DNA of 5,621 bases from Methanobacteriota archaeon. Lineage in GTDB: Archaea; Halobacteriota; Syntropharchaeia; DAOWMC01. This document shows, one piece after another, positions 772 to 5,567 of this stretch. The translations under genes were made by a program, and so were the position numbers. The stretch is from positions 1 through 5,621 of the forward strand of contig DAOWMC010000089.1 of the NCBI GenBank assembly GCA_030643285.1. The letters run 5' to 3'. Each line of letters starts with the position of its first letter. Positions within the stretch are counted from its first letter, which is position 1. The notes beneath the pieces are model-generated. The model ran no database searches. It saw only the letters and a program-made list of their open reading frames with translations, and was not told the origin of the DNA.

Positions 772-3700
772 ATGAAAGATGTAAGCGGCTCTGTTTTAGT
801 AATAGGTGGCGGTATAGCGGGAATACAGGCCTCGCTTGATATTGCCGATCAAGGATTTAAGGTTTATCTGGTGGAAAAGGATCCATCAATTGGTGGGAGG
901 ATGGCTCAGCTGGATAAGACATTCCCCACAAACGACTGCTCGATATGTATTGAAGCACCCAAGATGGTGGAAGTGGCGAGACACCCCAATATTGAGGTTT
1001 TAGCGTATTCGGAGGTTAAGGGGGTAAAAGGAAAGATAGGGAACTTTAAGGTGAAAGTTTTAAGAAAACCAAGGTATGTTGATGATGACTTGTGTAATGG
1101 GTGTGGTCTGTGCGTTGAGGAAGCAGGGTGTATTAAAGCATGCCCCGTGGGAGCAATTAAAAAGGATGAGGTAACCGGTATTATAAGCATTGATGAAGAG
1201 CTGTGCAAGCGTGAGATTGAGGAAAATGGATGCACGGAGTGTATCGGCGGTTGCCAGTATGATGCGGTAAGTATCCCCCCTGGATACGACCATGCTGCCA
1301 TTTGTGATCTCTGTGGTGGCGATCCTAAATGTATAGAAGTATGTCCTGTTAATGCCCTTGAATTAAAGAAATTCCATGTTAAGCTTTCAATTGATCCGGA
1401 AAAATGCACCGGGTGTAGAACCTGTGAACTTATCTGTTCTGAAGAAAAAGAGGATCTATTCAACCCGAATAGAAGTCGTATTCGTATAAATGAAGATAGA
1501 GGGATCGTTGATACTTTGGTATGCCAATTGTGCAAGGTTGATATCAAATGTGTTGATGCATGTCCTGTTAATGCCCTTGAGAAGGACGAAGAGACTGGTG
1601 CCATAAAGCTTTCTGGCCTATGTGCTGCTTCGGGTGGATGTTCCGCATGTGTCGATGCATGTGAGTATGATGCTATTCGAATTCCCTTGGGTGCAACCGA
1701 ACCAATACTCTGTGACCTCTGTGGTGGCGAGCCAAAATGCATGGAGTTTTGCCCTGTAGATGCGATCTCAATGGAGACATTCTATGATGGAATTGAGCTT
1801 GATCCGGAAAAATGCACCGGGTGTAGAACCTGTGAACTTGCCTGCTCTGAAGAAAAGGATGGTGTGTTCAACCCTAAAAAGAGTCGTATTCACATAATAG
1901 AACATGAGGGGAATATTGAGGTAAACCGATGTGTACTCTGTAAGACCTGTCCGGTATTTGCTCCAAGTGAGTTTGATGCAGGCATGGGGCAACGAAAAGC
2001 GGTTTATATACCATTCCCACAGGCCGTACCTTCAGTTGCCACTATAGACCGTGAAAAATGCGTAATATGTGGTTGCTGTGATTATATATGCAAAACAGAT
2101 GCCACAGATGCAGTTATATTCTCACAGAAACCCGAGGAAATTGAGATCAACGTTGGTAGCGTGGTTGTGGCAACAGGATACGAGGAATACGATCCAAGTG
2201 TCAAAAAAGAGTATGGGTATGGATTATATGATAACGTAGTCACTGGCCTTCAGTATGAGAGGTTGCTAATGGCATCAGGTCCAACATTTGGGCATGTTGT
2301 GAGGCCGTCGGATCATAAAGATCCTAAAAAGATTGCCTGGATACAGTGTGTTGGCTCAAGGGATGAAAACGCACACAAGTACTGTTCTAGGGCCTGCTGT
2401 ATGTGGGCTACCAAACAGGCCATGATTACAAAGGAGCACGATAAGAGCATTGATACGACTATATTCTACATGGATATCAGGGCTTACGGGAAGAACTTTG
2501 AAGAATTTTATATAAGAGCCCAAGAACAATCGGGTATAAACTATATTAAGAGCAGACCAGGTGAAGTCATCGAGACTCCGGACAAGAAGATGATACTCCG
2601 CTATGAGGATATCGCAACAGGTGAAATCGGTGAGTTTGAGGCTGATCTTTTAGTTCTTTCTTCTGCCATCATACCTAACAGAACAAATGAGGAGTTGAGT
2701 CGGGCATTGAAGATAGAACTCGATGAGAACAACTTCTTCAAGGAAAAAGACATGCTTTTTGCACCACTTGAAACCTCAAGAGCAGGTATATACATGGGTG
2801 GATGTATATCCGGGCCAAAGGATATACCGGACTCGATCGCACAGTCCTGTGGGGCTGCTGCAAAAGCGATTATACCTGTACATGAGGCAAGAGGTAAGGA
2901 TACTGTAGCCTTTGAGCTACCACCTGAAAAAGAGGTCACCGATGATGAAGAACCGAGAGTCGGAGTCTTTGTCTGCAGGTGTGGTATAAATATCGGTGGG
3001 GTAGTGGATGTTGAGAATGTTATAGAGTATGCTAAGACGCTTCCTGGGGTAGTTTTTTCAGAGGTTGATACCTTTACATGTTCCGATGACTGTCAGACAA
3101 GGATAAAGAACGCAATCGAGGAACACAAGCTCAATCGGGTTCTTGTTGCCGCATGTACTCCAAAGACGCATGAACCACTTTTCAGAGCAACGCTCAGGGA
3201 GGCAGGACTTAATCCATACCTCTTCGAATTTGTAAATATAAGGGAGCATTGTTCGTGGATTCATCAGGGTGAAACCGGGCTTGCAACAGAGAAGGCAAAG
3301 GATCTTGTCAGAATGGGCGTTGGCAAGGCGAAACTTCTACTGGTGGAAGAGGAAGGAGAACTTGAGGTCGGAGAGGATGCACTTGTAATCGGTGGTGGTA
3401 TTGCCGGAATGACGACGGCGCTTGACCTTGCGGATATGGGCTTTAGTGTACATCTTGTGGAAAAGGAGGGTGAACTTGGTGGGATGCTTTCAAAAATAAA
3501 CAAACTATTCCCAACCGATGTCCTTGCAGAGGATATGATAAGACCAAAGATAGAAGCGATCGAAAGCCATGAAAATATAAAGGTTTACAAAGGCGCAGAT
3601 ATCGAAGAACTGAACGGATTCATCGGTAATTTCAACACAGTGATCTCACAGAACGGTTCAAAGGATGCTTTCAAAGCAGCAACGGTTGTTTTGGCCACCG

Positions 3701-4641
3701 GTTCGAAAGAGATCGATCCCACGGGATACTATGGCTATGGCCAGCACGACAACGTGATAACACAGCTCGAGCTTGAAAAGATGCTAAAAGAGGGTACATT
3801 AAAAGAACCAAAAGACGTGGTCATTATAACCTGTGTGGGTGCCAGAGAGGACAAAGGTAGGACTTATTGCTGTAGAATCGGTTGTGGTACGTCGGTAAAG
3901 AATGCCAAGTACATAAAAGAGCTCTATCCAGAAGCAAATGTAACCGTGCTCTACTATCAGGATTTGAGGGTATTTGGAAAGAGGGAAGAGGAGTACTACA
4001 GGGATGTCAGATACAATCACGGTGTGCAATTTATAAATTACACGAAGGAGAAAAGGCCAGAAGTATCTATTAAAGATAGCGGGCTAACCATTGACGTTTA
4101 TGATTCGCTTGTCGGTGAAGAGATCAAACTGGATGCTGATCTACTGGTTCTGACGGTTGCAACCGAAGGTGCTGAGGATATAGGCAAGATTCAAAAGATG
4201 CTGAAAGTGCCACTTGGTGTTGGAAACTTCCTGGCAGAGGCACATGTAAAGATAAGACCGCTCGACTTTGCAAGTGATGGAATATACCTCTGCGGATCTG
4301 CAAACTTCCCAAGAAGTGTACCTGATGCAATAGCACAGGGTTCTGGTGCAGCATCTCGTGCATCAATTCCAATGGGACAGGGAAAGGTTACAAGCGAAGG
4401 CATCGTGAGCATTATAAACGAAGGGATGTGTGTGCGCTGTGGAACATGTGAGCCCATGTGCCCGTACAGTGCGATCCGAACAGAGGACGATGGTAGAGTT
4501 TACGTCTTAACTGCACTGTGTAAAGGCTGTGGTACATGTGCGGCAGCGTGCCCGACCGGAGCGGTCGATCAGAGGCATTTCCAGAATGATCAGATAATTG
4601 CACAGATAAAGAATGTGTTTTATTATGAGGCGTTGGGGTAA
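772..4641 (+). CDS. Double HdrA-type flavo-iron-sulfur protein with a polyferredoxin insertion (1289 aa)
   Basis: Homologue of HdrA, the FAD and [4Fe-4S] subunit that splits or merges electrons in heterodisulfide reductase complexes; cytoplasmic, with no signal peptide or membrane helix. The start is fixed by an in-frame TAA at 754-756 with no other start codon before 772. First half: FAD fold with GGGIAG (12-17) and VEK (34-36); DCSICI (55-60); ferredoxin region 108-440; EFDAGMGQRKAVYIPFPQAVP (400-420) and VVATG (465-469), typical of HdrA; internal cluster motif with Cys 526, 538, 542 and 543. A linker follows (about 706-728). Second half: HdrA N-terminal domain (VCRCGINIGG 734-743, CTPKTHEP 795-802); second FAD fold, GGGIAG (874-879); ATG (975-977); Cys 1021, 1033, 1034, 1038; C-terminal ferredoxin with Cys 1220/1223/1226/1230 and 1250/1253/1256/1260. 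Two-HdrA fusions of about 1000 residues are known in sulfate reducers and related archaea. The excess of about 280 residues is the insertion at about 108-386. Partners are not encoded in the window. The physiological electron donor and acceptor are unknown. Confidence 0.9.
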   Translation: MKDVSGSVLVIGGGIAGIQASLDIADQGFKVYLVEKDPSIGGRMAQLDKTFPTNDCSICIEAPKMVEVARHPNIEVLAYSEVKGVKGKIGNFKVKVLRKPRYVDDDLCNGCGLCVEEAGCIKACPVGAIKKDEVTGIISIDEELCKREIEENGCTECIGGCQYDAVSIPPGYDHAAICDLCGGDPKCIEVCPVNALELKKFHVKLSIDPEKCTGCRTCELICSEEKEDLFNPNRSRIRINEDRGIVDTLVCQLCKVDIKCVDACPVNALEKDEETGAIKLSGLCAASGGCSACVDACEYDAIRIPLGATEPILCDLCGGEPKCMEFCPVDAISMETFYDGIELDPEKCTGCRTCELACSEEKDGVFNPKKSRIHIIEHEGNIEVNRCVLCKTCPVFAPSEFDAGMGQRKAVYIPFPQAVPSVATIDREKCVICGCCDYICKTDATDAVIFSQKPEEIEINVGSVVVATGYEEYDPSVKKEYGYGLYDNVVTGLQYERLLMASGPTFGHVVRPSDHKDPKKIAWIQCVGSRDENAHKYCSRACCMWATKQAMITKEHDKSIDTTIFYMDIRAYGKNFEEFYIRAQEQSGINYIKSRPGEVIETPDKKMILRYEDIATGEIGEFEADLLVLSSAIIPNRTNEELSRALKIELDENNFFKEKDMLFAPLETSRAGIYMGGCISGPKDIPDSIAQSCGAAAKAIIPVHEARGKDTVAFELPPEKEVTDDEEPRVGVFVCRCGINIGGVVDVENVIEYAKTLPGVVFSEVDTFTCSDDCQTRIKNAIEEHKLNRVLVAACTPKTHEPLFRATLREAGLNPYLFEFVNIREHCSWIHQGETGLATEKAKDLVRMGVGKAKLLLVEEEGELEVGEDALVIGGGIAGMTTALDLADMGFSVHLVEKEGELGGMLSKINKLFPTDVLAEDMIRPKIEAIESHENIKVYKGADIEELNGFIGNFNTVISQNGSKDAFKAATVVLATGSKEIDPTGYYGYGQHDNVITQLELEKMLKEGTLKEPKDVVIITCVGAREDKGRTYCCRIGCGTSVKNAKYIKELYPEANVTVLYYQDLRVFGKREEEYYRDVRYNHGVQFINYTKEKRPEVSIKDSGLTIDVYDSLVGEEIKLDADLLVLTVATEGAEDIGKIQKMLKVPLGVGNFLAEAHVKIRPLDFASDGIYLCGSANFPRSVPDAIAQGSGAASRASIPMGQGKVTSEGIVSIINEGMCVRCGTCEPMCPYSAIRTEDDGRVYVLTALCKGCGTCAAACPTGAVDQRHFQNDQIIAQIKNVFYYEALG
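1093..1521 (+). repeat. Ferredoxin tandem unit 1 inside the HdrA-like gene (residues 108-250)
   Basis: This unit encodes four cysteine motifs in the order II-III-IV-I of a HycB-like four-cluster ferredoxin. Motif II' has Cys 108, 111, 114, 120 and 124 and reads into KACPVGAI. Motif III has Cys 145, 154, 157 and 161 (TECIGGCQYDAV). Motif IV has Cys 178, 181, 187 and 191 (CDLCGGDPKC...CPVNAL). Motif I has Cys 212, 215, 218 and 222 (CTGCRTCELICSEEK). The conserved FNP..SRIRI sequence after motif I is characteristic of ferredoxin subunits of the HycB/DmsB type. Spacing from motif II' to the next motif II is 143 residues. Confidence 0.8.
1391..1431 (+). repeat. 41-base perfect direct repeat, copy 1
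   Basis: Begins TTGATCCGGAAAAATGCACC and covers the codons for DPEKCTGCRTCEL of motif I in unit 1. It is identical over 41 bases to 1799-1839, including third codon positions. Similarity continues downstream at lower identity, about three quarters over the next 58 bases by hand count. Confidence 0.95.
1522..1929 (+). repeat. Ferredoxin tandem unit 2 inside the HdrA-like gene (residues 251-386)
   Basis: Second copy of the same four-motif unit, 136 residues long. Motif II has Cys 251, 254, 260 and 264 (CVDACPVNALEKDEETG). Motif III has Cys 284, 290, 293 and 297 (CVDACEYDAI). Motif IV has Cys 314, 317, 323 and 327 (CDLCGGEPKC...CPVDAI). Motif I has Cys 348, 351, 354 and 358 (CTGCRTCELACSEEK), followed by FNPKKSRIHI. 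It then runs into a third, incomplete motif II (Cys 387, 390, 393) that merges with the ordinary HdrA sequence EFDAGMG. Motifs IV and I lie exactly 136 residues (408 bases) after their partners in unit 1. Confidence 0.8.
1799..1839 (+). repeat. 41-base perfect direct repeat, copy 2
   Basis: Same 41 bases as 1391-1431, at a distance of 408 bases, which equals the 136-residue protein period. It encodes motif I of unit 2. A further 14-base match with the same offset (1309-1322 and 1717-1730, CTCTGTGGTGGCGA) lies at motif IV. Confidence 0.95.
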
Positions 4642-4748: not shown

Positions 4749-5567
4749 TCATCTATTTTGCAAAGCCCCCCTAACTGCTTTTTCCATTACATCGATAGGA
4801 GGTTTTTTCCCGGTCCAAATCTTAAAGGATTCTGCCCCCTGATGAACAAGCATCATAACACCGTCTATTGTCTTTGCACCGGATCGTTTTGCAGCCCTTA
4901 GCATTTTTGTCTCGATTGGATTATAGACGATGTCAAAAACGGTTAAATCCGGATGCATCCTATCAGAAGTCAAAATTGAGCCATCAACATTTGGATACAT
5001 GCCAACAGAGGTTGAATTGATAAGTATATCCGCATCCTTAACATTAGAATTCAGTTCGTTTAGACCTACGCCTGTAACTTTGGGGCTGTCAATTGAATTT
5101 GCAAGATCTATCGCTCTACTTCTGGTTCTATTGACAATTGTTATATGTGCACCATCGGCTGCCAGTTGAAATGCAATGGCTTTTGCCGCACCACCGGCCC
5201 CGACTAAAACAACATTTTTTCCCCCAACATCCACATCGTGAGCCTCCAAAGCCTTTTTGGCACCAAGCCCATCTGTATTGTAACCCGTGTTTGTACGAAG
5301 ATCAATCGTGTTAACGGCACCGATCTTTTTTGCCAAGGGATCAACATCCAAAAAAGGAATTACATTCTCCTTGTGTGGAATTGTGATATTTAGGCCGTCT
5401 ATACCAAGCGATTTTGCACCCAGAACCGCCTCTTTCAAGGCCTCTGCTTTTACATTAAAGGCAAGATAGATGCAATCCATTTTCATTTTGTCAAAGGCAG
5501 CGTTTTGCATTACGGGGGAAAGTGAATGCTCAATCGGATCTCCTATGACACCGTATACCTTTTTCAT
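4749..5567 (-). CDS. aroE: Shikimate dehydrogenase (NADP+)
   Basis: Reduces 3-dehydroshikimate to shikimate with NADPH in the shikimate pathway to aromatic amino acids; cytoplasmic. 272 residues, the usual length for AroE. The N-terminal substrate domain begins at once with YGVIGDPIEHSLSP (5-18), where the serines of the SLSP motif bind shikimate. NITIPHKE (60-67) holds the catalytic lysine K66, GAVNT (83-87) follows, and D99 in NTDG is the partner catalytic aspartate. The NADP domain has GAGGAAKA (123-130) and NRT (146-148), the latter typical of NADPH preference. NSTSVGM (184-190), the D-I-V-Y-N-P motif (212-217) and MLVHQGAESF (239-248) complete the family pattern. All key residues are present, so the enzyme should be active. 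The start is fixed by the motif lying right at the N-terminus. It converges on the HdrA-like gene with a 107-base gap. A weak GGTTGAT (5573-5579, minus strand) may be its ribosome site. Confidence 0.97.
   Translation of the reverse strand: MKKVYGVIGDPIEHSLSPVMQNAAFDKMKMDCIYLAFNVKAEALKEAVLGAKSLGIDGLNITIPHKENVIPFLDVDPLAKKIGAVNTIDLRTNTGYNTDGLGAKKALEAHDVDVGGKNVVLVGAGGAAKAIAFQLAADGAHITIVNRTRSRAIDLANSIDSPKVTGVGLNELNSNVKDADILINSTSVGMYPNVDGSILTSDRMHPDLTVFDIVYNPIETKMLRAAKRSGAKTIDGVMMLVHQGAESFKIWTGKKPPIDVMEKAVRGALQNR

Follow-up and report, generated by a model that had tools for sequence, protein, structure and literature searches.

An archaeal heterodisulfide reductase subunit A (HdrA) carries, inside one of its own ferredoxin motifs, an insert of 278 residues made of two tandem ferredoxin copies whose nearest relatives are the small iron-sulfur subunits (WorS/AorA) of tungsten aldehyde oxidoreductases. 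The gene lies on contig DAOWMC010000089.1 of a Methanobacteriota archaeon assembly (1.3 Mb, 65% complete), and the window analyzed here spans the entire contig of 5,621 bp (C102 of the source genome, G000). It holds one long gene, 772-4641 on the forward strand, which encodes 1289 amino acids without an internal stop. As to function, we see an even chance that this tandem HdrA, with its WorS/AorA-like double module, forms a predicted eight-cluster wire leading from the low-potential port to a docked partner, possibly a tungsten oxidoreductase. The insert and the native motifs around it are as follows.

1093..1113, + strand: cysteines 1-3 of native motif 1 (C108, C111, C114) in the inserted ferredoxin domain (invariant 38/38)
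1114..1947, + strand: insert, residues 115-392, 278 amino acids, 32 cysteines (cysteine count, 5ODC alignment, alignment A2)
1114..1533, + strand: tandem copy A, residues 115-254, beginning in the middle of motif II
1534..1947, + strand: tandem copy B, residues 255-392, ending in the middle of motif II
1120..1371, + strand: arm 1 of the permuted module, residues 117-200, with motifs III and IV preceded by the latter half of motif II, by inferred ligand pairing
1381..1779, + strand: central module, residues 204-336, a complete four-motif WorS-like ferredoxin with its motifs in order
1789..1944, + strand: arm 2 of the permuted module, residues 340-391, with motif I followed by the opening half of motif II, by inferred ligand pairing
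1391..1431 and 1799..1839, + strand: 41-nt exact block shared by the two copies (copy comparison)
1948..1950, + strand: C393, which completes the split native motif as its fourth cysteine (CxxCxxC...CPV; invariant 38/38)
2059..2091, + strand: native motif 2 of the inserted ferredoxin domain, C430, C433, C436 and C440 (invariant 38/38)

The insert splits motif 1 of the native inserted ferredoxin domain between its third and fourth cysteines. In HdrA of Methanothermococcus (5ODC), this motif (CxxCxxCxxxCP, with C246, C249, C252 and C256) is unbroken, and the match of the window protein to it halts past C114 and restarts before C393. All eight native cysteines are invariant in alignment A2, whose 38 sequences comprise insert carriers and plain HdrA. 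The initial annotation, made from the DNA letters alone, was right that an insert of this size exists and that 33 cysteines lie between residues 108 and 358, which a count confirms, but its limits for the insert, 1093-1929 (residues 108-386), lie near rather than at the true ones, 1114-1947.

The two tandem copies that it described are borne out by comparison: each is about 140 residues long, and they are identical at 69/136 aligned residues and at 61.5% of the DNA. The same codon is used at 42 of the 69 identical residues versus 29 expected and, since much of this excess falls within the one 41-nt exact block, the pattern suggests local gene conversion between the copies. Each copy starts in the middle of a cysteine motif and stops in the middle of the corresponding one, such that the central module reads I-II-III-IV in the normal order and the other module is circularly permuted.

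There are 36 cysteines in residues 100-400, or nine sets of four; the cysteine content elsewhere in the protein would predict about 10 (binomial P 3e-11). All 36 are invariant in 6/6 aligned carriers of the insert and are also kept in a seventh, P0217. Because the cysteines are conserved across carriers, eight extra [4Fe-4S] clusters are predicted in the insert, in keeping with the earlier proposal of a built-in polyferredoxin with about that many. By the ligand-pairing rule of double ferredoxin folds, C387 and C390 would pair with C120 and C161, and C124 with C145, C154 and C157, and so on. Only six residues separate C114 from C120, and three separate C390 from C393; if this pairing holds, the first predicted cluster of the insert would therefore adjoin the native HdrA clusters.

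What kind of ferredoxin is it? WorS/AorA subunits account for the best four of 23 matching PDB sequences and for the best five of 147 Foldseek matches, ahead of MvhB, FwdF, HycB and FdhB chains in both searches. The "HycB-like" label of the initial annotation thus stands for the fold but not for the nearest kin. The central module has motifs I-IV in order with the 16 cysteines typical of WorS/AorA, and 72/72 free-standing relatives align to residues ~204-345. In a first structure model, built on the 38 rows of alignment A2, the insert reached a predicted local distance difference test (pLDDT) score of only ~40. A second model, of residues 106-396 on the 80 rows of alignment A3, had a mean pLDDT of 73.9, with both ends of the insert below 50. 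Alignment A3 used 72 of 117 single-module matches, and plain HdrA rows were left out because aligning them jointly with single modules misplaced the latter. The chains found by structure search cover model residues 94-234 almost exclusively, such that the permuted module was barely probed structurally.

In searches of the kind that the initial annotation had proposed, the whole two-copy insert was found in seven sequences: the window, P0002, P0003, P0004, P0005, a gene on contig C67 of genome G004 and the partial P0217. Over the searched region, the values relative to the window are 85% for P0002 (1287 amino acids), 83% for P0003 (1288), 66% for P0004 (1269) and 54% for P0005 (932). G004 belongs to the same class as the window genome, and its carrier gene runs off the contig end. 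Carriers were found in 2/58 genomes of the class and 2/392 drawn from the phylum, the same two genomes in each case (E values up to 1e-60); since the phylum scan scored four candidates per listed genome, compared with up to 28 in the class scan, the 2/392 could miss carriers with many HdrA paralogues. A scan of named genomes returned four loci, two of which were read: a tandem HdrA of Bathyarchaeota (1178 amino acids) lacks the insert, and the other locus matched through a separate ferredoxin of 201 amino acids alone. No intermediate with a single-unit insert was seen among the best 120 of 5307 matches, five of which cover 99-100% of residues 60-450 while none of the remaining 115 exceeds 46%, nor, judged by coverage, within the best 120 of 7987 matches of a second search.

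Several related sequences deserve mention in their own right. P0217 (420 amino acids, named "Halobacteriota archaeon" by NCBI) retains every one of the 36 insert-region cysteines but is short of 18 residues in the flavin adenine dinucleotide (FAD) domain and has altered PSEFD and PFPQAVP signatures; it may be a paralogue on its way to becoming a pure polyferredoxin. Two further sequences, P0218 and P0219, are fragmentary. P0219 (238 amino acids, on a contig of 3285 bases) is near-identical to the window protein and ends just past the first FNP motif in copy A, at a point where copies A and B are alike; either the assembly broke at the repeat or the variant is truncated. In the window genome (contig C17, 464-4812), another tandem HdrA, of 997 amino acids and without the insert, lies, by eye, between methylene-tetrahydrofolate reductase-like and mvhD-like genes.

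Could the insert be an artefact? The initial annotation had allowed for one in the reading frame, and both the break of P0219 inside copy A and the 41-nt exact block shared by the copies are what an assembly chimera or dead gene might leave behind. We give this almost no credence. The full two-copy insert occurs at these very residues in six further sequences, which is why we reject an assembly artefact, and all 36 cysteines are retained.

The window protein and P0002-P0004 are tandem HdrAs with no N-terminal domain at their start; P0005, a single HdrA, and the G004 protein begin with that domain. When the insert is removed and a tree is built from the HdrA core (48 rows, P0217 omitted), carriers fall at two places, and a single carrier clade, as expected if all insert-bearing HdrAs arose by whole-protein descent from one origin, is rejected (approximately unbiased test, p 0.017). 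The module tree unites all 14 insert modules in a single clade (100/99), and the seven permuted modules are likewise a clade (96/94). The seven central modules are not split off from the rest by any single branch of the best tree (44% of bootstraps), in which the permuted module of G004 forms a long branch. Since the insert modules form one clade and the HdrA backbones two, the cassette probably arose by one duplication and insertion and then moved between hdrA paralogues. Loss of the insert from plain HdrA seems less likely, because it would require exact restoration of the motif.

If the insert interrupts a ferredoxin domain, where would its electrons go? The inserted ferredoxin domain of HdrA is described as the low-potential exit to ferredoxin (PMC9012536, PMC12054007). 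Since this is the domain that the insert breaks, the initial proposal of a wire from the first FAD remains plausible and can be sharpened. In type III HdrA, a GltD module near the inserted ferredoxin domain has been argued to block soluble ferredoxin and provide another carrier (PMC12054007); by analogy, the insert likely replaces soluble ferredoxin with a protein-bound wire. It is also plausible, as the initial annotation suggested, that it replaces a separate HycB/polyferredoxin subunit. As for the partner, AorA of the Aromatoleum aldehyde oxidoreductase (AOR) links the tungsten subunit to further carriers across gaps of <15 angstroms (PMC10413684), and a WorL-WorS pair, BamBC, joins HdrA/B/C-like subunits in class II benzoyl-CoA reductase (PMC13328260). 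On these analogies, we rank a docked tungsten oxidoreductase first among candidate partners, with modest probability.

In the mechanism we envision, the likely host would oxidize alkanes via alkyl-CoM reductases, in which case HdrA would probably act as a confurcating enzyme. Docked on the insert, a tungsten oxidoreductase would supply low-potential electrons derived from aldehyde, which would travel through the eight insert clusters to reach the first-half FAD. There they would meet electrons from CoM-SH and CoB-SH delivered by HdrBC, and the joined electrons would exit to a mid-potential acceptor. The window genome has five divergent matches to the alpha subunit of methyl-CoM reductase (on contigs C40, C59, C135, C72 and C34; best 1.4e-19, where the best match of every group f2 genome that has one is 8e-41 or better), which suggests several alkyl-CoM reductases. 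The target of the ANME1-350 probe occurs in 33 of the 58 class genomes, each of them from group f2, and is absent from the window genome; together with the divergent methyl-CoM reductase matches and the NCBI name of P0217, this makes the host probably a member of Syntropharchaeia (a class name used in PMC12533140) outside ANME-1. The window genome also has seven AOR matches, two of them weak, and its WorL proteins are on contigs C37, C228, C224, C174 and C15. The furthest-reaching version of this proposal is that the insert is a permanent WorS docking arm, holding one or two tungsten aldehyde oxidoreductases on the low-potential port through eight clusters, with no soluble ferredoxin, as a cassette spreading among hdrA paralogues. 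We consider this version possible but somewhat doubtful.

Several observations weigh against a docked tungsten enzyme. WorS/AorA genes are expected beside worL, but the only neighbor of hdrA in the window is aroE, and no WorL gene is found in the 8 kb before the G004 homologue; indeed, no partner gene of any kind was identified in the window or near that homologue. Neither a tree of tungsten enzymes (25 rows, six genomes) nor a class-wide search revealed a WorL limited to carriers, and a hydrogenase search gave matches in all six genomes. The tree pairs a protein from G004 (C33) with one from the window genome (C37) at 99/99, but long branches meet there. The closest WorL match between the two carriers is shared more widely: seven ANME-1-family genomes (anaerobic methanotrophic archaea) have relatives at 41-44% versus 48% between the carriers. 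Finally, 18/30 AOR loci, in carriers and non-carriers, lack a WorS-like frame, the loci spanning ~1.5 kb beyond each match, with some stopping at a contig end and some repeating the same gene.

The insert could also be a polyferredoxin wire leading to formylmethanofuran dehydrogenase (Fmd/Fwd), as in the Hdr-Fmd supercomplex, to formate dehydrogenase (Fdh) or to hydrogenase. Supercomplexes of Hdr with Fmd/Fwd and with Fdh are known (PMC12054007), and MvhB, FwdF, HycB and FdhB chains do appear among the insert matches. The carrier contig of G004 also has, by eye, fdhA-like and formate-transporter-like genes. However, these genes lie >4 kb away on the other strand with unrelated genes intervening, and the superior ranking of WorS/AorA in both sequence and structure searches speaks against this alternative, which we regard as rather unlikely. 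Another possibility is that there is no fixed partner, the insert serving as an internal electron buffer or as a landing platform still passing electrons to soluble ferredoxin. Eight predicted clusters would store several electrons, class II tungsten oxidoreductases (WorL plus WorS) use ferredoxin (PMC13328260), and the absence of a partner gene near hdrA in the window and on the G004 contig fits such a role. Against it, AorA of known structure joins an active-site subunit to a further carrier (PMC10413684), and we judge this possibility unlikely. Filament cores built of AorA and of HycB3/HycB4 are known (PMC10413684), and the modules might instead serve mainly to polymerize HdrA into filaments. 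This seems very improbable, as the known filaments need the C-terminal helices of AorA and HycB3/HycB4 (PMC10413684) and the insert is fused into HdrA at both ends.

The remainder of the protein is a recognizable HdrA of the tandem type. Alignment to 5ODC places the flavin part at residues 5-116 and 391-658, the N-terminal part at 726-898 and the C-terminal part at 1139-1283, and Pfam finds FAD domains at two places and a row of 4Fe-4S domains. The other features of the window are as follows.

430-603: open reading frame of 57 amino acids with a likely membrane segment (by eye), between the contig start and hdrA
772..4641, + strand: hdrA, tandem (type II) HdrA with insert, 1289 amino acids (open reading frame; NF040770 1083.7 bits, cut-off 1100; best PDB chain 5odc_A HdrA, 753 bits)
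946..948, + strand: C59, counterpart of 5ODC Cys197 (alignment register, query 5-116 versus 143-254; role per PMC9012536)
2257..2259, + strand: E496, first-half counterpart of E356 (bifurcating flavin)
2413..2415, + strand: K548, first-half counterpart of K409
2947..3465, + strand: residues 726-898, comprising the HdrA N-terminal domain and the beginning of the second FAD half (counterpart of 5ODC residues 2-174 by alignment)
3775..3777, + strand: E1002, second-half counterpart of E356
3898..3900, + strand: K1043, second-half counterpart of K409
4411..4563, + strand: C-terminal two-cluster ferredoxin domain, residues 1214-1264 (PF14697)
4749-5567, opposite strand to hdrA: shikimate dehydrogenase gene, aroE

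The core fold and the cysteines of the inserted ferredoxin domain are those of soluble HdrA (best match Hdr, E 1.5e-53), and the flavin-stabilizing residues E356 and K409 (5ODC numbering) have counterparts in both halves. As the protein misses the NCBIfam equivalog cut-offs for HdrA (807.3 versus 1400 bits) and HdrA2 (1083.7 versus 1100 bits), we file it by its domains as type II HdrA rather than as an HdrA2 or methanogen HdrA equivalog. It has the second thioredoxin reductase domain in one chain that defines type II. The GltD-like domain of type III was not found in the insert, whose matches are 4Fe-4S families and iron-sulfur subunits. The C-terminal MvhD fusion of HdrA2 (type Ia) is also missing: PF02662 is absent from the 25 of 28 Pfam families shown, and the protein ends 25 residues beyond the C-terminal ferredoxin domain. 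The first half has C59 and lacks the N-terminal domain; the second half has the N-terminal domain and no cysteine between residues 827 and 1021. The role assigned to Cys197 in 5ODC is to ligate the N-terminal cluster of the opposite HdrA half (PMC9012536).

HdrA sets which redox pools are coupled in anaerobic archaea. If our reading is correct, the insert would turn the ferredoxin port into a protein-bound wire, so that coupling by a diffusible carrier would give way to hard-wired coupling. It would also have a bearing on how anaerobic alkane oxidizers proceed from alkyl-CoM to acyl-CoA, a stretch for which tungsten aldehyde oxidoreductases are among the candidates, although their moderate expression raises doubt in one case (PMC10322722). 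A complex between HdrA and WorL is a direct prediction of the docking model. Beside the published GltD insertion, the insert is a second type of module in the same HdrA domain, marking that domain as a place where electron partners are swapped in evolution.

How does this protein compare with known systems? Like the WorS/AorA subunits of WOR5 (6x6u, 6x1o) and AOR (8c0z, 9mqx), its central module, for which they are the top sequence and structure matches, is a four-motif, four-cluster double ferredoxin fold. Theirs occur singly, as free-standing subunits encoded next to worL, whereas the window protein has two modules, one of them circularly permuted, within HdrA and no worL nearby. In class II benzoyl-CoA reductase, BamBCDEFGHI, the WorL-WorS pair BamBC is likewise complexed with HdrA/B/C-like subunits (BamD, BamE), but as separate subunits, for another reaction and with three clusters rather than four in BamC (PMC13328260). 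The FwdF/FmdF polyferredoxin of Hdr-Fmd supercomplexes (9sw6, 5t5i, 7bkb) also consists of repeated ferredoxin units physically coupled to Hdr, but forms a subunit of its own, matches less well in sequence (1.7e-07 to 7e-05) and does not share the overall fold (template modeling score 0.16).

Among HdrAs, the window protein resembles type II (classes A3/A4; PMC12054007) in its two thioredoxin reductase/FAD halves with E356/K409 counterparts in both, and differs in the 278-residue double ferredoxin insert. At 1289 amino acids, it exceeds the 302-1,182 amino acids of the 1,152 HdrAs from 624 genomes and 28 classes surveyed in PMC12054007. The complementary pattern of C59 and N-terminal domain resembles that proposed for self-partnering in fused HdrA of ANME, where the halves are in reverse order (PMC9012536). 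The initial annotation gave no earlier description of such an insertion, and we likewise found no account of a double-ferredoxin insertion in the literature searched on HdrA and tungsten enzymes, a search whose scope was largely text outside subscription journals, figures and supplements. The word "polyferredoxin" is absent from the main text of PMC12054007, whose classification sections name the GltD insertion and no iron-sulfur one, and the fourteen ANME HdrA groups described in PMC9012536 include one NfnB-like insertion. That insertion is a published analogy. Type III HdrA (HdrA9-11 of ANME-1 and A10 of Bathyarchaeota) also bears a redox module within the inserted ferredoxin domain, but there, by eye in P0201, P0177 and P0130, the module is of the flavin/NAD(P)H kind and separates motif 1 from motif 2, whereas the module described here is purely iron-sulfur and lies inside motif 1. 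In P0130 (1697 amino acids), the NfnB/GltD-like insertion itself bears, by eye, a further two-motif ferredoxin segment. Thus, although GltD/NfnB-like insertion into the same domain has already been published, an iron-sulfur insert inside motif 1 of HdrA is apparently new.
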